Positions 21,431 through 33,843 of a stretch of 64,000 nucleotides of DNA are shown here, piece after piece. The position numbers and the translations under genes are program-made. Within the stretch, counting starts at the first letter, position 1; every line of letters starts with the position of its first letter. Below the pieces are notes generated by a model that saw only the letters and a program-made list of their open reading frames with translations, was not told the DNA's origin and ran no database searches. Source of the DNA: Candidatus Saccharimonadota bacterium (GTDB lineage Bacteria; Patescibacteriota; Saccharimonadia; Saccharimonadales; Saccharimonadaceae); NCBI GenBank assembly GCA_028286285.1, contig JAQBRV010000004.1, positions 62,001 to 126,000 on the forward strand, written 5' to 3'.

Positions 21431-21506
21431 GCGGGTGTAGCTCAGTTGTTAGAGCGCTTCCTTGCCAAGGAAGAGGTCGAGAGTTAGAGTCTCTTCACCC
21501 GCACCA
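21431..21506 (+). tRNA. tRNA-Gly (GCC), integration site
   Basis: The acceptor stem GCGGGTG pairs with CACCCGC, the anticodon loop TTGCCAA gives GCC, and CCA is encoded. The D-loop is AGTTGTTA (U at 19) and the T-loop TTAGAGT (A at 56), replacing the near-universal G19-C56 pair by U19-A56. No terminator follows the CCA; instead the 3' end of a serine recombinase gene runs antisense through the tRNA, so this is the left attachment site of the adjacent element. Confidence 0.9.
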
Positions 21507-23149
21507 CGAACGAAATCATTGGCATCAACGAACCCTTTCCAGGGTTCGCTTAGTTTATAAGACACTTGTGACCCCTTACGGAAGTCTCCATTCGCTGCCG
21601 TAATCGTAAAGTTAGAGAAGAAAATACGCAGTAGTGTATCCATAGTCTGCATGTTGCGTATTTTACCCAGTATAACGGGGGTAGATTCAAAAAGTTTGAG
21701 GTATTCTTCAAAGGTTGGAATTGAGTTTTTTACGTTGTCACGTAGTCTCAGATTCTTTTGATAATCACTCCTTAACACCTCGATTTCCTTCGTGTACTTG
21801 TCGAGGTCGTAGTGAGCTTTAAGCTCAGGGTTATCCCTAATGAGAACTTTTGTCTGCTCGTAAGCCCTCTCCTTATTTGCTGCCACAGTCCTTAGTCTGC
21901 CTATGGCGCTATCGAACTCAGCCTTCTTCGCCTCAACGGTCTTTTCGGCTCGTTTAACGAAGTCTGCGTAATTACTATTTGTTACAAAGAGGTAATCAGC
22001 AAAGAACTTCTGTGCAGCGTTAATCACCAACTCAGCTCTTGCCGATCTACCTTCCAACTCGCACCCTTCAGTTTCGCATTTATAGTAGTAGCGAGCGTTT
22101 TTAAGATTCCCTTCAGCGTCCCTCTTATTGATAAGCATGGAGGTCAAAGTCTTCTGGCAATGACCGCAGTATACTCGTCCGTTGAGCAATTTCGCTCGAA
22201 TTGTGCCACCACGGGGTCTCTGGCGAGCTGATATTTTAGTAACACTAAGCGGGTCAATCTTATTAATCTTGAAGAACTCCTCTGCGGTTATCATAGGTGT
22301 AAAACCGTATGTTTCCATCAGGTCAACGTGATTCTTACCCCATGCATGGATTCCAGTACTGTGAGGGTCTCTCAGTAGCTTCGACACATCATCTTTACTC
22401 CAGACGTGAGGTACTGGTTCGGCTCCCTGGCGCTTCTGGACAGTATAACCCTGCTCATTTATCCATTCTCGTATATCTTTCTGGGATTTTCCAGCAAGTG
22501 CCATTTCAAACATATGCTTAACCTTAGTGAAGTTTACTGGGTCGGGTTGGAAGTATCTGTCTGAATCGACAGTATATCCGTGCTTGAATTTCCCGATAAA
22601 CTCAGCGCCCTCAATAGCACGAGCATTACCCCTATCCACAGACTCCGCCAAATGTTCCGAGTACTGCTTCGCCATGACGAATGTTATCCCGAGCAGCATC
22701 TTACCTGCGGGGGTGTTCTCAAAAGTAAAGGTGGGGAAGCGCAGGTCTTTTATCAAACCCCTATCTACGAGGTCGATGATTGCTCCTGCCTCTTTCATAT
22801 TTCGGGATAGCCTATCAGGATGCCAAGCAATAACACCGTCAATATGTCCCAATTCTATATCTCGTATCATTTCTTTGAACCGTTCACGGGTATCCGCTAT
22901 TTTGGCTGAATAGCTTTCTTGATATACCTTAAATACATTTAGAGGATTAGATTCATCGGCAGCGACGACCCTTTCCATGCAGTCTTTTATTTGGTCTTCT
23001 ATAGAGGAAGATTGTCTGTCTTCGCTGGTTGTTGACTTCCTCGCATATAACCCATACCTTACAGTATTTGTGTCGACCTCACTTGGTCGCCCAGGTTGAC
23101 CTGCAAGTAAGAAGTCGAGTAATTGCTTTCTGTCTTCGCCTTGTTCCAT
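21449..23149 (-). CDS. Large serine recombinase (site-specific integrase)
   Basis: The 566-residue product has an N-terminal resolvase domain with the catalytic serine in YARKST (Ser39) and arginines in HPDRLSR, a recombinase domain, a zinc-ribbon-like segment (CGHCQ, then CETEGC), a coiled coil near 380-470 and a C-terminal region. Its last 18 codons lie inside tRNA-Gly, so the present C-terminus (after DANDFVRGA) is antisense tRNA. The element's own tail probably survives at 29245-29358. A minus-strand TATAAT ends seven bases before the ATG. Confidence 0.93.
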   Translation of the reverse strand: MEQGEDRKQLLDFLLAGQPGRPSEVDTNTVRYGLYARKSTTSEDRQSSSIEDQIKDCMERVVAADESNPLNVFKVYQESYSAKIADTRERFKEMIRDIELGHIDGVIAWHPDRLSRNMKEAGAIIDLVDRGLIKDLRFPTFTFENTPAGKMLLGITFVMAKQYSEHLAESVDRGNARAIEGAEFIGKFKHGYTVDSDRYFQPDPVNFTKVKHMFEMALAGKSQKDIREWINEQGYTVQKRQGAEPVPHVWSKDDVSKLLRDPHSTGIHAWGKNHVDLMETYGFTPMITAEEFFKINKIDPLSVTKISARQRPRGGTIRAKLLNGRVYCGHCQKTLTSMLINKRDAEGNLKNARYYYKCETEGCELEGRSARAELVINAAQKFFADYLFVTNSNYADFVKRAEKTVEAKKAEFDSAIGRLRTVAANKERAYEQTKVLIRDNPELKAHYDLDKYTKEIEVLRSDYQKNLRLRDNVKNSIPTFEEYLKLFESTPVILGKIRNMQTMDTLLRIFFSNFTITAANGDFRKGSQVSYKLSEPWKGFVDANDFVRGAGEETLTLDLFLGKEAL

Positions 23150-23156
23150 TCATGAC

Positions 23157-23162
23157 ATTATA
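23157..23162 (-). promoter_or_regulatory. Leaderless -10 box of the recombinase
   Basis: TATAAT on the minus strand, seven bases before the recombinase ATG at 23149. Confidence 0.65.
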
Positions 23163-23193
23163 AGGCTTTTATAATAGTTAGAGCTACTTTAGG

Positions 23194-23325
23194 CTATAGA
23201 ATAATTCGCACACCATCCAGAATCAGATAGGGTTTTTCCTCGGATTCATCGACTAGCAAATAGGAATCCAAGATTTGTACAACCTCAGAAATATCGACTG
23301 TTTTGGTTTTATTGGAGTTCTCCAT
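23194..23325 (-). CDS. 43-residue small protein upstream of recombinase
   Basis: An ATG-started frame of 43 codons reads MENSNKTKTVDISEVVQILD and ends in PYLILDGVRIIL. The composition is protein-like (acidic, helical, strand-like C-terminus). It is codirectional with the recombinase, 44 bases upstream. The position would suit a recombination directionality factor or small regulator, but nothing in the sequence proves this. Confidence 0.45.
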   Translation of the reverse strand: MENSNKTKTVDISEVVQILDSYLLVDESEEKPYLILDGVRIIL

Positions 23326-23478
23326 ATGGAGTCTTTTGCAAGACTTCCATGGTGAGAATCTTTAATGGTAGCGTAAAAAATATCGTGTATCTTTTGTACT
23401 ACTTTCACTATCCATTATAGGCTTTTTTCAACATTTTGTAAATGTTTTTATGCTTATTATTCATAATAATTACCACTG

Positions 23479-23838
23479 TTAATCCACTGTAGATTCATAC
23501 CTAGGCATAAGTCTACTAATAACGATTGGCTCCCGTCTCAAAACTTCCTGTGAAACAGCTCCTCGTTCCTGCTGATCGGCGAGCCAACCGATGGCTTGCA
23601 TGTTGCCTTGGAGTGCCTTATGAACGGTCGCTAGTACGACTGCTTTGGCGTAAGTCATTGATTTACCCTCAGTCAATTCGGCAATACTGCTTTTGGCGAG
23701 CACACTGCTATCAGCTTCTTGGTCGAGTAGTTCCTGAACAATCGTGGACATATTTTTACTGCCAGGTTTGCGACCTGATGGATTGCCTGATTGTCCTGGT
23801 GGCCAGGGTGTTAAATTTGGATATTTTTGTGTTTTCAT
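23479..23838 (-). CDS. DUF5681-like protein (terminase-small-subunit-like N-terminus)
   Basis: The 119-residue protein begins MKTQKYPNLTPWPPGQSGNP followed by SGRKPGSKN, the motif of DUF5681 proteins found in phages and mobile elements. The remainder is helical (MTYAKAVVLATVHKALQGN). The family may bind DNA. TATAAT lies 12 bases upstream of the ATG. The mobile-element context supports a role in the element rather than the host. Confidence 0.7.
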   Translation of the reverse strand: MKTQKYPNLTPWPPGQSGNPSGRKPGSKNMSTIVQELLDQEADSSVLAKSSIAELTEGKSMTYAKAVVLATVHKALQGNMQAIGWLADQQERGAVSQEVLRREPIVISRLMPRYESTVD

Positions 23839-24001
23839 GTGTCTATTCCTATTATAGCTAATTGGTTATTTCTCATCTGTTAGTTGCATTGTCCTGTAAC
23901 GCATTCTAAGGCGATTTAAGAGGTTTTAACGCGCGAAATGAGTATAGGGTCATCTTTATGTTTTGCCTCTGTTACAGGTGGCGTTTTTGGCAATTATTTC
24001 G

Positions 24002-24007
24002 TATAAT
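24002..24007 (+). promoter_or_regulatory. -10 box of the structured RNA
   Basis: TATAAT, placed about seven bases before the first paired base of the RNA fold at 24014. Confidence 0.6.
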
Positions 24008-24011
24008 AGCA

Positions 24012-24151
24012 AGGCTTAGACAAAATAATTCACGCCAAATTAGCATTCTTGTGATTGCTACGGTTTATGCGATAAAAGCAGCCGTAGCAAAACCCAGAAG
24101 CGTAAGCCGAAGGGCGTGATGGTCTAAGCAACCCGCTACGGTTGCTTTTTT
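24012..24151 (+). ncRNA. Structured RNA with intrinsic terminator, attenuator-like
   Basis: Nested stems are visible: GCTTAGAC (24014-24021) with GTCTAAGC (24122-24129); TCACGCC (24030-24036) with GGCGTGA (24113-24119); TTGCTACGG (24055-24063) with CCGTAGCAA (24082-24090). It ends in a terminator AGCAACC/GGTTGCT (24127-24146) plus six T. CCGTAGC can alternatively pair with GCTACGG inside the terminator loop (24135-24141), and AGCAACC recurs at 24158-24164 just before the next gene, giving competing folds. It may be a cis attenuator of the gene at 24184 or an independent small RNA. No known class was recognised. Confidence 0.65.
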
Positions 24152-24183
24152 GTTTCTAGCAACCGTTCAGCAGAAAAGTTGCT

Positions 24184-24843
24184 ATGACAAATACGACATC
24201 TCACAATCCATGGCAAAACCTCAAGCCACTCTATGTCTTACCAGAAGACTTTGCTGTGATTGCGGGTCATCGAAATTATTCTAACTTACGACTTGATGCG
24301 TTACCGAGTCAGGTGATTGGTGGTCTCGATAAGGCGGAAGTTATCTTTCTACTGTTAAATCCTGGCTTTAGCGAGGGTGACATTACTGTTGACCTACAAA
24401 TCCCTCATTTTGTTGCAGCTAATCGCCTAAACCATATAGACCCATATGGTTCGCCATTCTACTACTTCAACGGTGGCTTAGAGCGAACGGGAGGCTATAA
24501 GTGGTGGAAAAGAGTACTTAATCCTTTAATGCAGGGCGGTGTGACAGAGGATATGTTAAGGGAAAAGATTATGACGATTGAGTTTTTTCCGTATCATTCG
24601 AAAGATTGGATGGATTTACCCCAAGTTCCTTCGCAGCAGGTGGCGTTTGACTTAGTGCGCGAGGCTATTAAAAGGAAGAAGACTTTGATTATTCGTAGCC
24701 CCCAAAGATGGCTAGAAGTAATACCCGAATTAGCCACATATCCTTATGTAACATTCAGGAGCAATCTAAACGTAACGGTGTCGCCCAAGAACGTAGGCGA
24801 AGTGAACTTCAACAACATAAAGAATCTTATAATGGGAGAATAG
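24184..24843 (+). CDS. Uracil-DNA-glycosylase-fold protein (distant)
   Basis: The 219-residue product has a motif VIFLLLNPGFSEGD (about 53-66), like the first active-site loop of the uracil-glycosylase superfamily, and a downstream IEFFPYHSKDW. These are typical of UDG-like proteins found in mobile and defence regions. Which base, if any, it excises cannot be told. It is the first gene after the structured RNA and is followed two bases later by the gene at 24846. Confidence 0.55.
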   Translation: MTNTTSHNPWQNLKPLYVLPEDFAVIAGHRNYSNLRLDALPSQVIGGLDKAEVIFLLLNPGFSEGDITVDLQIPHFVAANRLNHIDPYGSPFYYFNGGLERTGGYKWWKRVLNPLMQGGVTEDMLREKIMTIEFFPYHSKDWMDLPQVPSQQVAFDLVREAIKRKKTLIIRSPQRWLEVIPELATYPYVTFRSNLNVTVSPKNVGEVNFNNIKNLIMGE

Positions 24844-24845
24844 TC

Positions 24846-25223
24846 ATGAACGAAGAATACAAGCTCATACCACTCCAGAAAACGCAATCAATTCCAGTAA
24901 GTTGGAGGTTCACTCAGGAAGAATACGATAACATGGCCAAAGGTCATCGCTCTAACTGGTGTGTATTCTTGCGTGACGATGTTGTGCATGTTTGCCGAAT
25001 TGGAGGAGAAGAGTTTTATCGGTTTACGGTAAGTAAGACTGGCGATGGGGTCTATGCGACCGACGACCTAGAAGCATATATACCCGATGACTTCTATGAG
25101 TCTGCAAGGCAGCATGGATGGACAGACCAGGAAATCGAACGACACCAAGCAGAGTTGAGAGAGTCTGTGATTGAAGAGACTGTTGGATTACTTGCAAGTT
25201 ACTTCAATATCAATACGGCTTAA
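24846..25223 (+). CDS. Hypothetical protein in element unit 1
   Basis: The 125-residue protein is acidic and soluble, with a beta-rich first half (VHVCRIGGEEFYRFTVSKT) and a helical C-terminus. No family recognised. The ATG at 24846 follows a GGGAG site and starts two bases after the preceding stop, so it is cotranscribed with the UDG-like gene. Its end overlaps the convergent gene at 25220 by four bases. Confidence 0.65.
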   Translation: MNEEYKLIPLQKTQSIPVSWRFTQEEYDNMAKGHRSNWCVFLRDDVVHVCRIGGEEFYRFTVSKTGDGVYATDDLEAYIPDDFYESARQHGWTDQEIERHQAELRESVIEETVGLLASYFNINTA

Positions 25224-26092
25224 AAACCGTATTTTTCTTGTAGCTCAATGTATTTTTTATCGTGCGACTTATCAATGTCGCGGAATATTTTAAGTTCGAC
25301 GCCTTTTTTGAGCTTTTGAGTTCGATTAACGATTTGAAGGAATGCTACTAAGAACTTGTAGGCTGTTTGTGCAGCACGTACAGTTTCATAAATTGGCGCA
25401 TCTAATCTAATTTCGAGATAGGCTTTTGGCTCAATCCTGCTGTTATTCATATTACCTAATACAGTCGAGTGAGTATCGCCTGAAAGAATAGAATAAACGC
25501 CACGGTAATCAAATTGGGTCAGTGTTTTATAATCGGGATTCTTGGCTAAATTAGAATCATCTATTTTTTTCAAACGTGCGAGAAGTGATTTGTATGAATC
25601 AAGTCTGATAGTGGGATGTGACTCACTGAACTTTTCTAGCTCAGCTCTTCGTCTGGCGATAGTCCTGGTTATAGCTTCATCAGAAATAGTTCTTTTCCAA
25701 GTTTCAGCGTTTGGATAAGCCGCACGGAGTCTTTGAACATCTGTCCATGTGCCTAATTGCTGCTTGGATTCCGAAGCAAGTCTAATCTTTAAGTTGATAT
25801 TAGACACTTCTAGGTTGATAAAATCGTATTCTGCTAACGTCTCCCACATAGAGCGAATCAGTATGTTGCTTGCGTTGCCTTGGTTGGCTCTAGTTAACGC
25901 AAGAATAGCATCTGCTCTCTGATATAAAGCACTAAAAGTGTTATAGCGAATAACCGTCTTAGCTTTAACATAGTGCTTGTAGCTGGCTGACTCGAGCAAT
26001 TCCTTAGCAAATCCGAGTAAACTTTCGAGGTCTGAAATTACCTCGTCTCTTAGCTGATTAGTATCTCTTACATATTCTGTTTCACTTGTCAT
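25220..26092 (-). CDS. DUF5677 family protein
   Basis: The 290-residue all-helical product has the DUF5677 features RSMWETLAEYDFI and YSILSGDTHST, with conserved Arg, Glu and His. Family members are common in defence islands, but their activity is unestablished. The ATG at 26092 is preferred to the upstream frame because the promoter elements (minus-strand TATTAT/TATAAG at 26103-26111) lie within the longer version. It is divergent from the HEPN operon and shares an overlapping promoter with it. Confidence 0.75.
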   Translation of the reverse strand: MTSETEYVRDTNQLRDEVISDLESLLGFAKELLESASYKHYVKAKTVIRYNTFSALYQRADAILALTRANQGNASNILIRSMWETLAEYDFINLEVSNINLKIRLASESKQQLGTWTDVQRLRAAYPNAETWKRTISDEAITRTIARRRAELEKFSESHPTIRLDSYKSLLARLKKIDDSNLAKNPDYKTLTQFDYRGVYSILSGDTHSTVLGNMNNSRIEPKAYLEIRLDAPIYETVRAAQTAYKFLVAFLQIVNRTQKLKKGVELKIFRDIDKSHDKKYIELQEKYGF

Positions 26093-26104
26093 AGCTCTAA
26101 GCCT

Positions 26105-26110
26105 TATAAT
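26105..26110 (+). promoter_or_regulatory. -10 box of the HEPN operon, overlapping divergent promoter
   Basis: TATAAT on the plus strand ends six bases before the ATG of a 12-codon leader frame. The same bases contribute to the minus-strand box of the DUF5677 gene, so expression of the two units should be mutually linked. Confidence 0.6.
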
Positions 26111-26116
26111 AGCAGT

Positions 26117-26155
26117 ATGTTGTTGAGTCAAATAACCAGATGGAATAACGAATAA
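26117..26155 (+). CDS. 12-codon leader peptide coupled to the HEPN gene
   Basis: The frame encodes MLLSQITRWNNE and its TAA overlaps the next ATG (TAATG). Its ATG lies six bases after TATAAT, so it would be the leaderless first frame of the mRNA and would deliver ribosomes to the HEPN gene, which has no Shine-Dalgarno site. It is too short to be judged by composition. Confidence 0.5.
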   Translation: MLLSQITRWNNE

Positions 26156-27156
26156 TGAATAACTCGCGACGGCTTCCGAGCTATATAGTCCCTATGGAGG
26201 AAATTGTTCTCGATAAATTACGCGTTATTCCCGCCGAGCCGGTAATCGTAAATGATGATTGGCAAAGAAATCACAGGTCTGGCTCGATAATCATTGAAGA
26301 AGATGGCCATAATGGTCTGATTGATAATTGGGTATACTTCCATGCACTCCTGGCGGATAGCAGACTACCAGTTTATGCGCTCCATGCAAAGGGTGAAGAA
26401 GCGAGCAGTTTTCAGATTAACGAGTTCGATAATGAGGATAATGTAAATTTAGTTCCGAGAGTCATAAACTTCGACTCGGAAGATTTGTTACCAGCAGTGT
26501 ATTTGGACTACGAGGAGCCACCAGAAGTTTCTTACAAAAAGGCTTATGATGCCTATATAAAACAAGGTAACGTATACTTTTCAGCACTAAAAAACTACTT
26601 CGTCGCGCAAGACATTAACTTTAATAAACGACTACGTAACATAGACAACTCATATTGGCAGATAGTAATGCTGGTGTCGACCTTGGAAGCATTGCTACCT
26701 CCTCCTGTATTTTGCAAAGGTAAATGCGAGACATGCGGTAAGGGTCTATCCCATGTGTTGAATGACCCTGGTAAAGACTGGAACGAACTACTCTTTAACA
26801 AAATTACGGATAAAAAGATAAGAAAACAATATAGGGATGTCTTAGATGAAGCACGTTATAAGATTCGCAACGACACCGTACATAACGGCTTAGCACCTGG
26901 AAACACTTTTTGGAAGTCACCTTCTCTACCTGATGGCGTTACGGAGTATACAACCACGAAGTCTCTCGAAAAATATAAAACAGACAGATATTCTTTAGAA
27001 AGTTTTATCGACCAATTGAAACAAGTCTGTAGGTACTTACTATTAAATCAGTTCATCGTGTGCGACATATTTCCATCGCTGAAAGGGATAGAAGTGCATA
27101 GCTTTTCCGCAACATCAACCGAGTCGAATTTTACAATGAATATAGAGATTAATTAG
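26155..27156 (+). CDS. Apea-like HEPN domain protein
   Basis: The 333-residue protein has an N-terminal beta-rich region and a C-terminal helical domain containing WQIVMLVSTLEALLP (about 168-182), three cysteines (187, 191, 194) and the HEPN motif R-x4-H in KIRNDTVHNG (Arg238, His243). Apea-like HEPN proteins such as ApeA are RNases that arrest translation during phage infection. That role here is inferred. It heads a three-gene operon with gaps of only 11-12 bases. Confidence 0.7.
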   Translation: MNNSRRLPSYIVPMEEIVLDKLRVIPAEPVIVNDDWQRNHRSGSIIIEEDGHNGLIDNWVYFHALLADSRLPVYALHAKGEEASSFQINEFDNEDNVNLVPRVINFDSEDLLPAVYLDYEEPPEVSYKKAYDAYIKQGNVYFSALKNYFVAQDINFNKRLRNIDNSYWQIVMLVSTLEALLPPPVFCKGKCETCGKGLSHVLNDPGKDWNELLFNKITDKKIRKQYRDVLDEARYKIRNDTVHNGLAPGNTFWKSPSLPDGVTEYTTTKSLEKYKTDRYSLESFIDQLKQVCRYLLLNQFIVCDIFPSLKGIEVHSFSATSTESNFTMNIEIN

Positions 27157-27167
27157 GAGGAATTAAG

Positions 27168-28454
27168 ATGCCAACAGTTAACGGAAATATATATCCTGAC
27201 TTAAAAATACATCCATCAGCAAATGAGATATTTCGAATAGCGTTGCTGAGTGTCGATGAAGAGCATTTGTTTGAAATGATGAAAAAGCTGGATGTTCTAA
27301 AATACTACTTAAGTGACATAGGCGTGGGATTCGAAATTGAAGTGAATGTGGTCAATAGCGTAGCAACCGACTCTCGAAAAGAAGAGCTTGGCTATAAGGT
27401 TTTCGATGACCTTAATAATGAGAAGGAGGCGGTTCTTTCATATGCAACAACCAATAATATCGATTTGATTTATTCGGATGACGAGTCATTCATTCGTGAA
27501 TTGTACGCGGCGGGCAAGCCGTTTCAGTATGCCGATAGTTTGCTTCAACTCGAAAATGAGATTGATGCATTTGTAGCTGGAAAGAACGTAGCTTGGGATT
27601 TTAATCATCCTCTATGGAATGCGTCATGGTTTTCAAAATATATTGAGATTCAACCGTTAATGGGTAATCTAAGGGAACTCCACGACTCAACTCAAAGACT
27701 TAATTATACGCCACAGCAATCAACATACGTTAGAGCCTTGCAGCACAAAGCAATGCAGCTTAGGCACAGTGAAGAAATTATATTGTCGCTCATTCAGAAG
27801 AAGAATTATGCGGAACGTAATTACATGCGGACTGATTCATATGGCTATGAGAGCTATTATGACTATTCTTTTGAGATAGACTTTCAACTTACTAATTTTT
27901 ACATTCTGCTTTCAGGAACTTTCGATATTATTGGTAGATTGCTTACGAGCCTTTACGATATTAAGGGTAAAGATATTCGCCCGAACATAGAGCATGCAAA
28001 CTTCTTAAAAGTTTTGGAGTCTAAGAATAAAGATTTGTATGATTTTTATTCCGAAAAAGAAATGAATAACTGGATGGTATGGATTAAGCGAAAACGTAAC
28101 TATGTAGCCCATGAATCCGAAGCCAGTTACACTACAGTGTATAAGGCTAAAAAACAGAAGATTTCGGACGCCGATATTGAAAAGAAAGTTAACGCGATGC
28201 AGAAGTGGGACGGCATTCGCTTGCTAGCGGGCGAGCAGTATGTTGAATCTCAGAAAGAGTTTGCAAGACATATTGTTAGGATGCATGAAGATAATGAGGT
28301 TTATACAAAAGAGGCAATGCAGGTAAACTATTATGATTCAGCGGAAAAAGAAGATGCCACAATGCTCTTCCATCCTCTTGTTGATACGAAGGCTGACTAT
28401 GATAAATATGAATCTCTCATTGATAACACCGCGAGGATATTGCTAGGGAAATAG
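27168..28454 (+). CDS. Second HEPN-type protein of the defence operon
   Basis: The 428-residue product carries WIKRKRNYVAHES near residues 306-318, an R-x4-H motif (Arg310, His315) in the helical setting expected for HEPN ribonucleases. Residues 225-260 hold an aromatic-rich segment. The N-terminal 130 residues are a separate alpha/beta region of no recognised family. An AGGAGG site precedes the ATG by six bases. Two HEPN proteins in tandem suggest a heteromeric nuclease or toxin-antitoxin pair, not shown. Confidence 0.6.
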   Translation: MPTVNGNIYPDLKIHPSANEIFRIALLSVDEEHLFEMMKKLDVLKYYLSDIGVGFEIEVNVVNSVATDSRKEELGYKVFDDLNNEKEAVLSYATTNNIDLIYSDDESFIRELYAAGKPFQYADSLLQLENEIDAFVAGKNVAWDFNHPLWNASWFSKYIEIQPLMGNLRELHDSTQRLNYTPQQSTYVRALQHKAMQLRHSEEIILSLIQKKNYAERNYMRTDSYGYESYYDYSFEIDFQLTNFYILLSGTFDIIGRLLTSLYDIKGKDIRPNIEHANFLKVLESKNKDLYDFYSEKEMNNWMVWIKRKRNYVAHESEASYTTVYKAKKQKISDADIEKKVNAMQKWDGIRLLAGEQYVESQKEFARHIVRMHEDNEVYTKEAMQVNYYDSAEKEDATMLFHPLVDTKADYDKYESLIDNTARILLGK

Positions 28455-28466
28455 TCCACAAATCAT

Positions 28467-29255
28467 ATGAAGTCTACAATAAATTCACATTTGGTCTCAC
28501 AGGTTTTACTGCGTCGATTTGCAGTTAAAAACGATGAGGATAAATGGGTTACTATTCAACACGATAAAGACCAAGGCAGTGAATCGATTAAAGAGGTTGA
28601 ACATGTTGCTTGCAAGGAGGTGCCGCGTAAGTTAATTCAGCTACTAGAAGCAGAGTGGTCGGATGAAATTGAAAAACATGCAAATAAAGCAATCAATAGT
28701 TTGGCTCATCATAATTGGACAGAAGCGCATTTTGCTACCATTAAAGACCTAATAGCACTTCATCTTATTCGTTCACAAGCATTCCAAATGGTTGAAGACA
28801 ATAAAGATGACTTGATGAATAGAATTAAAGTAATCCGAGACGAAGCGATGGAAGAAAACCCTGAACTTAGCGATGTATTTAACTATCTATATGAGAAAGA
28901 AGCTAGAGACGCTACATTGGATGTATCTATCGGGGTCTTGGTTGAATACATAAGAAAAACTCGTGATTTTCTCACTAAGCCAGAAATCGGTCTTGATATT
29001 GGATTCGCTCCAGAAGGTAAGGAATTTATTATTGGCGAGGTGCCTGTCATCTCTATTTTTAAAGATGGTAAAATAGCACCAATAACCGACGCAAAGTATG
29101 TCGGTATGCCAATAACGCCAAAAATAATCGTCACCCTTAAAACGAAGCCGACTAGAGACAAGCCAGTAACGTTGACACCAACCGAAGTTGACCGTGTGAA
29201 CCAGCTTCAAATGAAACATACATATAAAGTATTCTTTTCGAAGCCTAGTAAATGA
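28467..29255 (+). CDS. DUF4238 family protein
   Basis: The 262-residue protein starts with the DUF4238 pattern SHLVSQVLLRRFAV and has the later EFIIGEVPVISIF motif. Family members are frequent in defence islands, with unknown biochemistry. It ends the HEPN operon. Its stop overlaps, on the other strand, the stop of the orphan recombinase tail. Confidence 0.72.
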   Translation: MKSTINSHLVSQVLLRRFAVKNDEDKWVTIQHDKDQGSESIKEVEHVACKEVPRKLIQLLEAEWSDEIEKHANKAINSLAHHNWTEAHFATIKDLIALHLIRSQAFQMVEDNKDDLMNRIKVIRDEAMEENPELSDVFNYLYEKEARDATLDVSIGVLVEYIRKTRDFLTKPEIGLDIGFAPEGKEFIIGEVPVISIFKDGKIAPITDAKYVGMPITPKIIVTLKTKPTRDKPVTLTPTEVDRVNQLQMKHTYKVFFSKPSK

Positions 29256-29358
29256 TTACTGTCGCGGACGGTTGGCTTAACGGGATTGATGGCACTGCGT
29301 TGTATACGTTATCGATGATGTACTCGAAAAGTTTAAGTAGATTCTGTTCGGTTGCACC
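29245..29358 (-). pseudogene. Orphan recombinase C-terminal tail 1 (right end of unit 1)
   Basis: On the minus strand 38 codons run from the GCACCA motif (Gly-Ala) through GATEQNLLKLFEYIID to VIIY and a stop. It has no start and is not joined to a recombinase body. It aligns with two other tails at 33056 and 33712. The tail is probably the element's original recombinase C-terminus, separated when the element integrated. Confidence 0.7.
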
Positions 29359-29371
29359 AATTAAATATGAG

Positions 29372-29803
29372 CTATCTAGCTCTTATTATTTTACAATTAG
29401 AACAGACACCTTGAATTTCCAACTGGTGCGACGTGTTTGTGTATCCATACTTTTGAGTAACTTTATTAATAAAACGTTCTATCTCACCATGTTCATGGAC
29501 TGAGATTAACTTTCCGCATTTGATGCAACTAATATGATGATGGTGTTCTATAAAAATATCAGATAGTTCGATTTTATACTTCCAACCAATCTGAATTTTA
29601 TGTACAATCCCGAGCCCGATAAATAACTCTATAACACGATAAATACTAGTACGATTAATTTTAGAGTTGATTCGACTTTCTAACTCTTGCATAGTCCGAG
29701 GTTCACTATTCAAAAGAGCAAGAAATACGGTTTTGCGAGCATTTGTAACGAAGACATTATTTTTTCGAAGAGTTTTTTCCAGTAATTCGATGCTATTATC
29801 CAT
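29372..29803 (-). CDS. Fur/Zur family metalloregulator
   Basis: Fur-family proteins repress promoters when bound to Fe, Zn or other metals. From the ATG at 29803 (143 residues) it shows a winged-helix domain (NRTSIYRVIELFIGLGIVHK), the metal motif HHHHISCIKCGK with a CxxC, and a second C-terminal CSNC, matching four-cysteine structural zinc sites. It is divergent from the SDR-COG0523 operon, and a palindrome abuts its start. The neighbours favour a Zur-like (zinc) sensor, by inference. Confidence 0.85.
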   Translation of the reverse strand: MDNSIELLEKTLRKNNVFVTNARKTVFLALLNSEPRTMQELESRINSKINRTSIYRVIELFIGLGIVHKIQIGWKYKIELSDIFIEHHHHISCIKCGKLISVHEHGEIERFINKVTQKYGYTNTSHQLEIQGVCSNCKIIRAR

Positions 29804-29830
29804 GTTGCAATATTGTATACAAATTGCAAC
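29804..29830. promoter_or_regulatory. Palindromic operator at the Fur/Zur-like gene
   Basis: GTTGCAAT and ATTGCAAC arms are separated by 11 bases that include the palindrome TTGTATACAA. A partial third copy (ATTTGCAA) follows at 29832-29839. The site ends exactly at the regulator ATG and covers its -10 region (TACAAT), which suits autorepression and control of the divergent operon. Confidence 0.65.
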
Positions 29831-29870
29831 AAATTTGCAATCTACATATTTCTCACTTACGATGATAGAT

Positions 29871-30746
29871 ATGAATAAAAAAGCACTTATAGTCATAACT
29901 GGAGTTAAGTTTAGCGAAGTAAAACGAGACTTTTCAGCAAGAGACTACATTACATATATTGAGCATGATAATAAAAAATATAAGATGAATGCGGCAGCAG
30001 GTGTGGTACGTCAACTAATTAATGACTATGAAATAATCTGTACCGGTTACAGTGAACTTGATGGTGATATTTTAGCTTCAGCTTTTGGATTAAGCAAAGA
30101 TAGATTCTTCACGACTAACCTACTGAATAAAGTAGAAACTGATGAATTCGTTGAAGCAGTAGCTGATTTGAAGACTGACCTAAACATTTCTGTACACCTA
30201 GTGCACTATGGTGGAGCATCAGATACAAAAACAAAACTACCTAACGACAGCTTACTCGCTCATACCTGGGACTTAAAAGCAGAAGCATTGCCGGCACTGA
30301 TTGAAAACAATTGTGTAACTCTTATTAATATCCTTCAGTCTATGAAGAAGCATGAGATATTTGAAGGACAGTCTATATCAAAAGTATTGTTCATCTCTGC
30401 AGCTGCTGCGGTGCGAGCTAAGCAAATGCTCGGACTTGATGTTGCTCAGAAAGGTGCGGGTCATGGTTTAATTCGAACTATTGCTCTTGACCTGACACCT
30501 GAGAATATTTTCGTAACAGAAATTATGCCTGGTAGTACTGACACTGGTTTCTTTGACAATGACTACTCACTGGATACAGCTGTGGAAGTAACAAAACGAC
30601 TAGGTTATGAAAACACTCGCGACACTTACCCAGTATTCACAGCAGAGCAAATAGGTGATGCAGCTAAGTACACACTTGATGCCAATTGTAACGTCAGAGA
30701 GCTTGTCCTATTGCCGTATGGCCAGTTCCCTCATCTAGGGGCTTAA
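29871..30746 (+). CDS. Short-chain dehydrogenase-like protein, atypical active site
   Basis: The 291-residue product shows the C-terminal SDR pattern KGAGHGLIRTIALDL and EIMPGSTDTGFF, but the N-terminal dinucleotide Gly-rich loop is poorly conserved. The position of the catalytic Tyr, four residues before the conserved Lys, is Asp (LDVAQK). It may be a non-catalytic or altered-function SDR. The ATG at 29871 is chosen because the upstream frame crosses the operator. It is followed four bases later by the COG0523 gene. Confidence 0.65.
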   Translation: MNKKALIVITGVKFSEVKRDFSARDYITYIEHDNKKYKMNAAAGVVRQLINDYEIICTGYSELDGDILASAFGLSKDRFFTTNLLNKVETDEFVEAVADLKTDLNISVHLVHYGGASDTKTKLPNDSLLAHTWDLKAEALPALIENNCVTLINILQSMKKHEIFEGQSISKVLFISAAAAVRAKQMLGLDVAQKGAGHGLIRTIALDLTPENIFVTEIMPGSTDTGFFDNDYSLDTAVEVTKRLGYENTRDTYPVFTAEQIGDAAKYTLDANCNVRELVLLPYGQFPHLGA

Positions 30747-30750
30747 TCTT

Positions 30751-32337
30751 ATGAGTCGGGAGAATTTTGAAGTCATATCTCTGCTTGGGCCACTTGGTTC
30801 AGGCAAAACGACGACACTTAACAATCTGATTGAAAAGGTGCCTTTAGCTGATAGCTATGCTGTCGTTGTGAATGATGTTGGAGAAAATAATGTCGATGCG
30901 CAGCGTATATGGGACCATCCCGCGAATCGGAGCGAGAAGATTATCCCTCTCACGGCAGGTTGTATTGGTTGTAGTGATGTCACACAGTTTAGGGAAGCAT
31001 TAGAAAAAGTACACGACGCAGGCGTCAATGTATTATTTATCGAACCGACTGGGATTGCTCCTGGTAATGAAATTGTGGATGTAGTCGAGTCGAGTGGGTT
31101 TAATCTTTCGGTTCTGACCCTTGCTAACGCACGTACAATTGAGCGTGATATGAAGTGGCAAGTACTGCCGAGTCAATTGGCTGTTGCAAATATTGTAGGG
31201 ATTACTCATATACCTGAAGGCAGCGACAATGCTGAAGTAATGGACACCGTGCTTGACCAACTGCCTCCACTTGCTGACGATGTCACTGTTGAACTAATTA
31301 AGCCTGGGGATACAAACTATTTTGAGATTCTCGCAAATTTGCGCGGTATGGATAAGCAGCTCAGGCTAGGCCGTCAAACACTACATGTTGTATCTGACCA
31401 TGACCATCATCACGACGATGATTGTAGCGGACACAATATTAGTGCTAAATCTTATCGCCTGCGTCCTGATGCATCGCTTGAGGCTGTAAAACAGTTACTT
31501 ATGCCTTACACTCAGAGTGACATTCCACTCTTACGCGCCAAGGGGGTGATTGGGGGTATGCGTTTCGACGTTGTAGGTGATGAATGGAAAATCCAACCTG
31601 ATGAAAGTAGCTTGCAAAGTATGAATGTCATATTCGCTGACCATATGCCAGCCACATTTCTTGATGCTGTACATGATTTATCTGAAACTCAGGAACGTGT
31701 ACTCATATCGGGAGATAAAAAGTCAGTCGTTAAATCAGTCAGTGATTTGCCCGTAAAAGAACGATTGGAGATTGTTAATGAACGAGTGAGGCAATACCCT
31801 CATCCAATTAGTCCTATGCATGGTGAAATCATCCCAGACTGTGAAGCGGATGAAGGATATGAAATAGCCTTCTGGGGCAACAAAGATGATATGCCCGATG
31901 ATGCGAAGCATCTAACCATGTCTGCATATATTTCATTTAGACTTGAAGGTCTCCACGAATTACAGCATCACAGCGAAAAGATAGCCAACTTTGACGCTAA
32001 GGCAGCCTACTGGGTAAGGAGATTTGGTGCGACGCTCGGCTACAATAGTTATTACTTAAGTGACTATATTCCTGAAGACAGCCTAAGTAGGATACGGGAC
32101 GTAAATCCTGCACGAATGCTTTGTAATGGCTTGATGGCATTAGATAAATTTACATTCGACGAAGGCCGAGCAGAAGAAAAGCCTGAATTTGTTGCAAGTG
32201 TTATGCGAGCTGCATACGAGAATGATGACGTAACAATGAAAGAACTTGAAACACTAAAGGTATATATGCTGAAAATTTCAAAGGATAATGAAGACTTTGA
32301 ATCACGATGGAAAACTACTTTCTCATTCGTTGACTAA
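30751..32337 (+). CDS. COG0523 (CobW/ZNG-like) metal-chaperone GTPase
   Basis: COG0523 GTPases deliver metals, often zinc, under starvation and are commonly Zur-regulated. The 528-residue protein has Walker A GPLGSGKTTT, a CIGC motif in TAGCIGCSD (the usual motif is CxCC), the EPTG switch region, a His/Asp-rich metal loop DHDHHHDDDCSGH and a CobW C-terminal domain. It has a C-terminal extension of over 150 residues not usual for the family (family length about 320-400). Its position beside a Fur/Zur-like gene agrees with a zinc role. Confidence 0.82.
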   Translation: MSRENFEVISLLGPLGSGKTTTLNNLIEKVPLADSYAVVVNDVGENNVDAQRIWDHPANRSEKIIPLTAGCIGCSDVTQFREALEKVHDAGVNVLFIEPTGIAPGNEIVDVVESSGFNLSVLTLANARTIERDMKWQVLPSQLAVANIVGITHIPEGSDNAEVMDTVLDQLPPLADDVTVELIKPGDTNYFEILANLRGMDKQLRLGRQTLHVVSDHDHHHDDDCSGHNISAKSYRLRPDASLEAVKQLLMPYTQSDIPLLRAKGVIGGMRFDVVGDEWKIQPDESSLQSMNVIFADHMPATFLDAVHDLSETQERVLISGDKKSVVKSVSDLPVKERLEIVNERVRQYPHPISPMHGEIIPDCEADEGYEIAFWGNKDDMPDDAKHLTMSAYISFRLEGLHELQHHSEKIANFDAKAAYWVRRFGATLGYNSYYLSDYIPEDSLSRIRDVNPARMLCNGLMALDKFTFDEGRAEEKPEFVASVMRAAYENDDVTMKELETLKVYMLKISKDNEDFESRWKTTFSFVD

Positions 32338-32366
32338 TGTATTTGCTATTATAGAATGATACTTCT

Positions 32367-33059
32367 ATGGTGAATAAAAACGTAAATATAAATTTAGTAG
32401 TTCAAAGTACTGCGACGATAAGCGATACTTGTATGTCTGTGTTTTTCGAACATCCGCCAGGTTTCGTGTATGAACCTGGAGATTGGATAGACTTAAATTT
32501 CAACGATGGCAATCCTAGAGGTGGCATTACCTACTCACTTTCATCATCGCCGACAGAAGACAATTTGTCTGTTACATTCAAACTCGGAATAAGTCCATTT
32601 AAGAAACGTCTGCAGTCGCTTGAACCAAATGACACCATGTTTATAAGCCAGTATGGTAATGATTATGGATTTCACTTAAAGGAAAACCGTTCAAGTGTTC
32701 TTATCGCAGGAGGAATTGGCATAGCACCATTTAGAAGCATGATAAAAGAGATGTACGATACAGATAATAAGAATGACGTGCAGCTTATATATCTAAATAA
32801 GGACACGGCTTTTGTTTTTGCCGACGAGCTCAGCTTATGGGAAAAACAACTTCCTAATATAAATGTGAAATATATTATTACAGAACAACTTAGCCGCAAA
32901 AAACGTGAGAAGCTACTTATTCCAATGATAGATAAAAATGCGCATCACTATTTTATTGCTGGTCCTGAGGCAATGGTAGAATCTACCGAACACTTATTAA
33001 TTGATGATATGGGAATTAGTGTAAAAGACATACGTATTGATAGCTTCGGTGGTTATTAA
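32367..33059 (+). CDS. Ferredoxin reductase-type FAD/NAD(P)-binding protein
   Basis: The 230-residue product has the flavin-binding RxYS-like GITYSLSSSP, the nucleotide-binding IAGGIGIAPFRSM and the C-terminal YFIAGPEAMVEST. The terminal FGGY replaces the usual aromatic tail. It would transfer electrons between NAD(P)H and an unknown partner. It ends the metal-cassette operon, and its stop overlaps the stop of orphan tail 2 on the other strand. Confidence 0.82.
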   Translation: MVNKNVNINLVVQSTATISDTCMSVFFEHPPGFVYEPGDWIDLNFNDGNPRGGITYSLSSSPTEDNLSVTFKLGISPFKKRLQSLEPNDTMFISQYGNDYGFHLKENRSSVLIAGGIGIAPFRSMIKEMYDTDNKNDVQLIYLNKDTAFVFADELSLWEKQLPNINVKYIITEQLSRKKREKLLIPMIDKNAHHYFIAGPEAMVESTEHLLIDDMGISVKDIRIDSFGGY

Positions 33060-33208
33060 TAGATAATCGTAACTTTTCTTTCTAACACCTTTTTATTAAG
33101 CTCTTTAGAAACAGATGTAGTCAGGGTTTGTAAATTATCGTTTTGTAGTTCGAGAGGGTTCTCGTATATATAATCTAAAAGTTTGAGGAGTGTCTGTTCA
33201 GGCGCACC
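33056..33208 (-). pseudogene. Orphan recombinase C-terminal tail 2 (right end of unit 2)
   Basis: Fifty-one minus-strand codons begin at the GCACCA motif with GAPEQTLLKLLDYIYEN and end in KVTIIY and a stop. It aligns with tails 1 and 3 mainly at amino-acid level (LLKL, IIY-stop), with different third bases, so it was once under coding selection in a different recombinase. Confidence 0.7.
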
Positions 33209-33225
33209 AATTTTAGCAATTTGTC

Positions 33226-33249
33226 AAATACGCTTTCGGGCGTATTTTT
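33226..33249 (+). terminator. Terminator after att motif 2
   Basis: AAATACGC pairs with GCGTATTT, followed by T. It sits 17 bases after GCACCA, the spacing expected for a tRNA terminator. Confidence 0.75.
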
Positions 33250-33263
33250 GCTATTATTATCCT

Positions 33264-33701
33264 ATGATAAATACCAATAAGCCCGTTCAAGATTTTCTCG
33301 CAACATTAGACGAGGATACGTTAAAAGATAGCGAAATTCTTTTCGAGATAATGCAACGAATAAGCAATGCTGAGCCTAAAATATGGAATGAACATACTAT
33401 AGGTTTTAGTTCATATCATTATAAGTATGACAGTGGTCGCGAGGGAGATAGCCAAATACTTAGTTTTTATCCTAGGAAGGCTAAAATCACCATTTACCTA
33501 ATGGATGGGACAGCGCGCTACGCTACATTATTAGATAAGCTAGGTAGTCATACAACCACTGGATACTGTGTTGTGGTCAAAGGCCTTGGTGATATAGAAC
33601 TATCTGTTCTTGAAGAGATTTTGCAGCAGTCTTACGACTATATAAAGTCAATATCTCAAACAGGATCTGTAGACAGAATTTTATGGAAGACTGAAAAGTA
33701 A
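33264..33701 (+). CDS. DUF1801 (YdhG-like) protein, cargo of unit 3
   Basis: The 145-residue product has the DUF1801 pattern (VQDFLATLDEDTLKDSEILF, then PKIWNEHTIGFSSYHYKY and a C-terminal helix). The fold is related to iron-chaperone frataxin-like YdhG, but function is unknown. The ATG at 33264 lies six bases after TATTAT. Two other DUF1801 genes occur at 33943 and 52444. Confidence 0.78.
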   Translation: MINTNKPVQDFLATLDEDTLKDSEILFEIMQRISNAEPKIWNEHTIGFSSYHYKYDSGREGDSQILSFYPRKAKITIYLMDGTARYATLLDKLGSHTTTGYCVVVKGLGDIELSVLEEILQQSYDYIKSISQTGSVDRILWKTEK

Positions 33702-33711
33702 TTACTTACCG

Positions 33712-33825
33712 TTAATAGATAATCCTTTCCCTAATTTCGCTATTTATTGGGATAGATGGTGAGCCTGAAAGTTGCCCATCTACGAGCACCCCAAAGAGTT
33801 TAAGTAAATTCTGTAGCTCCGCACC
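33712..33825 (-). pseudogene. Orphan recombinase C-terminal tail 3 (right end of unit 3)
   Basis: Thirty-eight minus-strand codons from GCACCA: GAELQNLLKLFGVLVDG to ERIIY and a stop. It is the same length as tail 1, again with IIY-stop. Confidence 0.7.
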
Positions 33826-33843
33826 ACTGTTATCATGCAAGAT

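Follow-up and report, generated by a model that had tools for sequence, protein, structure and literature searches.

Three genes at the distal end of an integrative element

The DNA analyzed here is a 64,000-nt stretch of a Candidatus Saccharimonadota genome (assembly GCA_028286285.1, contig JAQBRV010000004.1, positions 62,001 to 126,000), hereafter referred to as the window. Within it, three adjacent genes, encoding two proteins with an R-x4-H motif (HEPN1 and HEPN2) and a DUF4238 protein, occupy the distal end of an integrative element located at a tRNA-Gly(GCC) gene. An earlier note on this DNA had proposed a candidate antiviral operon inside such an element; there is good support for putative defense cargo being placed inside an integrative element, but not for the three-gene system, each gene occurring apart from the others elsewhere. 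Our preferred reading, to which we assign a probability of roughly 70%, is that the three genes are distal cargo on a ∼7.85-kb island, antiphage genes that would have been acquired independently rather than an obligate three-component system. The three genes are as follows:

26155..27156, + strand: HEPN1, 333 aa, ATG at 26155, RNDTVH at residue 238; probable HEPN ribonuclease
27168..28454, + strand: HEPN2, 428 aa, RNYVAH at residue 310; predicted Cthe_2314-type HEPN after an N-terminal region
28467..29255, + strand: DUF4238 protein, 262 aa, PF14022 at 52.4 bits

The three open reading frames (ORFs) are co-directional, with intergenic gaps of 11 nt (HEPN1-HEPN2) and 12 nt (HEPN2-DUF4238), and the genes, their RNDTVH and RNYVAH motifs, and the spacing of 11-12 bases are all present as had been described. 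The span first given for the cluster, 26105-29255, is right at its end, but the HEPN1 start codon lies at 26155 and not at 26105. By itself, the R-x4-H motif is weak evidence, because it occurs in 28% (HEPN1) and 37% (HEPN2) of 2000 shuffles of each protein, and in 14 of the 58 non-overlapping ORFs of the window. The form RN-x3-H is scarce by chance, appearing in 2.4% and 3.0% of the shuffled HEPN1 and HEPN2 copies, respectively (2000 shuffles); it is found in three of the 58 ORFs, two of which are HEPN1 and HEPN2.

Family placement of the three proteins

The third gene encodes a DUF4238 protein, as proposed: the PF14022 match covers residues 7-261 of 262 and is well above the cut-off of 27 bits. 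According to the available text of Rousset et al. (2022; PMC9122126), a DUF4238 protein encoded in a P2 hotspot of Escherichia coli confers strong resistance to T7 on its own. The window gene resembles that single-gene system in having PF14022 over its full length and in its location in a mobile-element hotspot, and differs in its HEPN-like neighbors; the likeness to the E. coli protein is at the family level, and activity is predicted. Identity with three plasmid-borne relatives is only 20-23%. Within the accessible portion of the open-licence literature, HEPN and DUF4238 were found together only in PMC9122126, in separate passages.

HEPN2 itself scores 23.5 bits against PF18730 (HEPN_Cthe2314), below the cut-off of 27.1. 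Its homolog in genome G063 (27% identity; compared genomes and loci are given G and L numbers here) reaches 35 bits, and because this protein clears the cut-off, both are well placed in the HEPN_Cthe2314 family, making HEPN2 a predicted Cthe_2314-type HEPN protein with a good family placement. The R-x4-H motifs of this set are RNYVAH (HEPN2), RNEFTH (G063 homolog), and RNNISH, and the closest equivalent in a G469 protein is RKLISH. In a decoy-calibrated hidden Markov model (HMM) search with a HEPN2 profile, this G469 protein was the best non-member, at rank 18 and below shuffled decoys. The family as described by Anantharaman et al. (2013; PMC3710099), where the text consulted lists Cthe_2314 as a HEPN family with associations 'None detected', has in common with HEPN2 the HEPN region with RN-x3-H and a homolog above the cut-off; HEPN2 differs in its sub-cut-off score, its mobile-island setting, and ∼185 additional N-terminal residues, to which nothing matched confidently.

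For HEPN1, no profile match was obtained in Pfam, NCBIfam, or PADLOC, and PHROGs matches occurred only at E 0.05 and 0.2. The motif IRN[DN]TVHNG is nonetheless kept in HEPN1 and its 55%-identical homolog in G071 (RNNTVH in the latter), and HEPN1 has the Rx4-6H signature with a polar residue following R by which the HEPN superfamily is recognized. Residues C187, C191, C194, and H200 of HEPN1 (C-x3-C-x2-C-x5-H) are likewise conserved, a possible metal site. By BLASTP, HEPN1 and a G296 protein share KIRNDxVHNG (9 of 11 residues identical), and the G071 homolog is ∼29% identical to the G296 protein over ∼100 aa (E 0.029 when 16 proteins were compared). The G296 protein matches PF18739 (HEPN_Apea) below its cut-off. 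This common motif is the likeness of HEPN1 to the ApeA-like HEPN proteins, from which it differs by a cysteine-rich insertion ahead of the motif and by the lack of any PF18739 match, at E 1 for the whole protein or at E 10 for its C-terminal part. Profile-profile comparison of HEPN1 with HEPN2 gave a probability of 0.2, and common descent is unsupported at that depth. Single-sequence AlphaFold2 models of both proteins have very low confidence, with mean predicted local distance difference test scores (pLDDT) of 32.5 (HEPN1) and 35.2 (HEPN2), and speak neither for nor against a four-helix HEPN fold. The proposal of two HEPN proteins is sustained for HEPN2 through its homolog above the PF18730 cut-off, whereas HEPN1, with a kept motif and no profile match, is likely, rather than securely, a HEPN protein.

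Occurrence of the genes elsewhere

Homologs are few in the same taxonomic family. HEPN1 occurs in 2 of 198 genomes (its own and G071; 2 of 394 by profile), HEPN2 likewise in two of the 198 (its own and G063), and DUF4238 in three (its own, G142 at 45% identity, and G007, where a weak match was verified by PF14022 at 53.8 bits). In a sample of the phylum, HEPN2 matched in 3/379, the third match (G392, E 0.007) being interrupted by two stops and dropped, while PF18730 matched in 6/314, with three above the cut-off and those of G323 and G247 below it.

Each homolog locus, namely G071 (HEPN1), G063 (HEPN2), G142, and G007 (both DUF4238), holds a single member of the trio, and no second member was detected by tblastn at E 1e-4 in the ∼19 kb around, a threshold under which the G007 DUF4238 gene itself falls. 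The latter gene resides in a different element with a serine recombinase, likewise inserted at this tRNA-Gly. Homologs of the three were also absent from loci L051-L067 (0/17 at E 1e-3). No relatives were found in plasmid searches with HEPN1, HEPN2, the G063 HEPN2 homolog, and its G063 partner, in phage searches with all three trio genes, in genome contigs with profile A2, or in viral contigs with profiles A1, A2, and A3; among PDB sequences, profiles A1 and A2 had no matches at E 10 and A3 had one at chance level. The neighborhood search, which the earlier note had put forward as a check, turned up no pair of trio members at any other locus.

A genuine three-gene antiviral operon would be consistent with three co-directional, closely spaced genes in a single element. 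Because no two members co-occur, or are co-conserved, in the genomes and collections searched, the claim of a three-gene system is not upheld, and in the available text of PMC9122126 a DUF4238 protein protects another host unaided; we regard such an operon as quite improbable.

The adjacency of HEPN1 and HEPN2, with their 11-nt gap, raises the alternative that these two form a two-component system (a sensor and effector, or a hetero-HEPN RNase), with DUF4238 as a separate neighbor. The arrangement in G063 is in keeping with this, as the HEPN2 homolog there begins 4 nt after the gene for a 472-aa R-x4-H protein, in an element beside tRNA-Gln. However, BLASTP detects no significant similarity between this partner and HEPN1 (E 1.0), Pfam yields nothing for it below E 0.09, and it contains R-x4-H three times, as chance permits, one of these (ARRQIVHSE) being HEPN-like in setting. 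It was found in none of 100 other family genomes, besides one stop-broken match (G026, E 0.005), which was dropped. The sole HEPN1 homolog (1 of 197 other genomes; 1 of 393 by profile) has no HEPN2 nearby: in G071, it overlaps a gene for a 201-aa protein with a hydrophobic N-terminus, close to a serine recombinase. Similarly, the HEPN_Cthe2314 proteins of G399 and G469, both above the cut-off, have no recognizable second HEPN gene among the ORFs listed in their neighborhoods. With this evidence on both sides, a two-component HEPN system appears unlikely.

Several points weigh against our reading of independently acquired antiphage genes. A good Shine-Dalgarno sequence ahead of HEPN2, along with the 11- and 12-nt gaps, fits an operon with shared function, and the G063 gene pair points the same way. 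The scarcity of homologs (one or two per gene) means that rare co-occurrence is conceivable. HEPN1 may fall outside the HEPN superfamily: in the decoy-calibrated HMM search with a HEPN1 profile, the best non-member was the G296 protein, at rank 30 and below shuffled decoys, which counts against a firm assignment. Finally, the antiviral function of all three proteins is itself a prediction from sequence.

Separately, in G399, a candidate-phylum genome, the PF18730 gene lies two genes from one for a ThsB-type TIR protein (L041 3953-6652); these two and a further, unassigned gene make up a defense-like setting and a possible defense cluster.

Target, ends, and stacked segments of the element

The integrative element was borne out, and both of its ends were located. 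The relevant features are:

21431..21506, + strand: tRNA-Gly(GCC), integration target; its last six bases, GCACCA (21501-21506), form the shared core
21449..23149, - strand: large serine recombinase, 566 aa, with Resolvase and Recombinase Pfam domains; its 3' end overlaps the tRNA
29331..29359, + strand: right-end arm 1, the end of the trio's element, with core GCACCA at 29354-29359
29360..33209, no strand assigned: second segment, recombinase-less, 3850 bp, with a Fur-type regulator, short-chain dehydrogenase, CobW GTPase, and oxidoreductase; arm 2 at 33181-33209
33210..33826, no strand assigned: third segment, recombinase-less, 617 bp, with one DUF1801 gene; arm 3 at 33798-33826

When the recombinase was searched against genome contigs, 16 loci emerged, 10 of which are 59-71% identical to it. 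Eight of these 10 are labeled Saccharibacteria or TM7, one Patescibacteria, and one 'bacterium' (L058); the last is probably the same genome as G381/L046, judging by common sequence features. In nine of the 10 (the exception is L059), the recombinase gene end overlaps tRNA-Gly(GCC), and the far end of the same nine loci bears a kept arm, GTTTRAG-N-A-N3-TCTGT-N6-GCACCA (the pattern tolerates slight variation), whose final six bases are identical to the tRNA 3' end. In the whole genome of the window there are exactly three such arms, in one direction and all in the window, with none for a reversed-pattern control. The arm is present in 11 of 50 family genomes (control 0), and multiple copies occur in the window's genome alone.

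Given the arm and core positions, and the picture of an unoccupied site apparently provided by G008, where sequence resembling that after arm 2 (76% over 62 nt) comes immediately after the GCACCA of tRNA-Gly, the trio's element spans ∼21507-29359 (7853 bp) and ends 104 nt past the DUF4238 gene. No long tRNA-Gly repeat was found at its far end, because the shared core consists of GCACCA only.

The island is an SCC-like composite by virtue of its repeated attachment sites and stacked segments at one target. In common with the staphylococcal cassette chromosome (SCC/SCCmec) islands, which target orfX and use cassette chromosome recombinases (Ccr), it has a large serine recombinase, a single chromosomal target, and stacked recombinase-less segments. 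It differs in that its target is the 3' end of tRNA-Gly and its recombinase scores far below the Ccr threshold: the nearest NCBIfam models, XisF and CcrB, are both below cut-off, with CcrB at 51.1 bits against a cut-off of 900. In the accessible part of the open-licence literature, nothing on topic paired serine recombinases with Saccharibacteria.

The three arms stacked at one tRNA-Gly site bound recombinase-less segments in an integron- or SCC-like manner. The genes at 29372-33059, for the Fur-type regulator, short-chain dehydrogenase, CobW GTPase, and oxidoreductase, likely make up a metal-response segment. The 617-bp segment is shared with L054, which is 82% identical to window positions 33177-33826 and has three copies of the arm, one of them deviating from the strict pattern. 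At L076 and L078 (genomes G035 and G036; two of nine loci examined for tRNAs), tRNA-Gly lies ∼540 and ∼730 bp upstream of an arm, and the intervening segments are recombinase-free and long enough for no more than one small gene. More tentatively, Saccharibacteria might possess a cassette platform, with the trio as one of its loads, in which the tRNA-Gly recombinase would insert recombinase-less cassettes of one to a few genes in trans, each ending in a ∼29-nt arm and GCACCA, so that defense genes are stacked and exchanged in much the way that resistance cassettes are in integrons; HEPN1-HEPN2 may then be a paired RNase system. We consider this broader model possible, albeit doubtful.

Other cargo and sister islands

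Four further genes lie between the recombinase and the trio:

23479..23838, - strand: DUF5681 protein, PF18932 at 57.7 bits; presumably small-terminase-like
24184..24843, + strand: distant Brig1-like DNA-glycosylase relative, NF047634 at E 2.7e-5 and 23.8 bits (cut-off 230)
24846..25223, + strand: small partner of the Brig1-like gene; the pair is adjacent again in G004
25220..26131, - strand: DUF5677 protein, divergent from HEPN1, PF18928 at 36.2 bits against a cut-off of 27.1

The G004 pair (L047 3435-4480) is in an island at tRNA-Gly whose recombinase differs from that of the trio's element, with 41% identity for the Brig1-like gene and 24% (E 3.7e-15) for the adjacent partner, and the two are possibly a two-gene module. 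The same island (L047 1490-7115) encodes four more proteins that have no Pfam match, one of which (290 aa) contains RHPHAH.

Sister cargo was scanned in 42 of 50 listed ORFs, drawn from nine sister loci, with none from L060. PADLOC GajA models (Gabija) match three of the 42 proteins, with a best E of 1.6e-295, although a single PADLOC match names no system, because AAA-ATPase models overlap heavily. Pfam matches include a UvrD helicase, an Eco57I-type methylase, a D12 methylase, and a KAP NTPase, and there are also aldo/keto reductase, phosphotransferase, and metal-regulator genes; predicted defense cargo is frequent in the sister elements, yet not exclusive. At L046 6432-10508, and with the same features in L058, a gene for an 817-aa SMC/AAA ATPase is convergent with one for a 205-aa RHPFAH protein, a possible defense pair.

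These scans also bear on whether the HEPN genes are instead toxin-like genes that stabilize the mobile island and have no antiphage role. HEPN proteins can be toxins, according to the available text of PMC4621449, and both genes are located on an integrative element. Set against this are the recognized defense genes of the sister elements and a Pfam scan of nine proteins in or beside the element, which detected no MNT-type antitoxin. A stabilization role is, in our view, very improbable.

Predicted mode of action and significance

The reading of the island as carrying defense cargo draws on the DUF4238 family with its validated member, the HEPN_Cthe2314 protein, the Brig1-like gene, and the Gabija and restriction-modification genes of sister elements. 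HEPN RNases need no metal to cleave RNA; the R and H of their Rx4-6H motif act at the interface of a dimer, and abortive infection is a frequent setting. HEPN1 and HEPN2 would accordingly be metal-independent ribonucleases with RN-x3-H active sites at a dimer interface, unleashed upon infection such that RNA cleavage halts growth, while the DUF4238 protein would act as its own antiphage module, similar to the protein from the E. coli P2 hotspot. Any transcript common to the three may reflect opportunistic stacking favored by insertion and co-transcription, rather than a single complex.

Read in this way, the locus holds no new three-gene immune system, and defense cargo on a composite serine-recombinase island is of a kind already known. 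What it provides is a precisely bounded defense island in an ultra-small, Saccharibacteria-type genome. HEPN1 is a candidate effector of orphan type, and the Brig1-like gene and its kept small partner make up a testable two-gene module. The recurrent insertion site, with tRNA-Gly(GCC), the GCACCA core, and a recognizable arm, can be scanned for further defense cargo.

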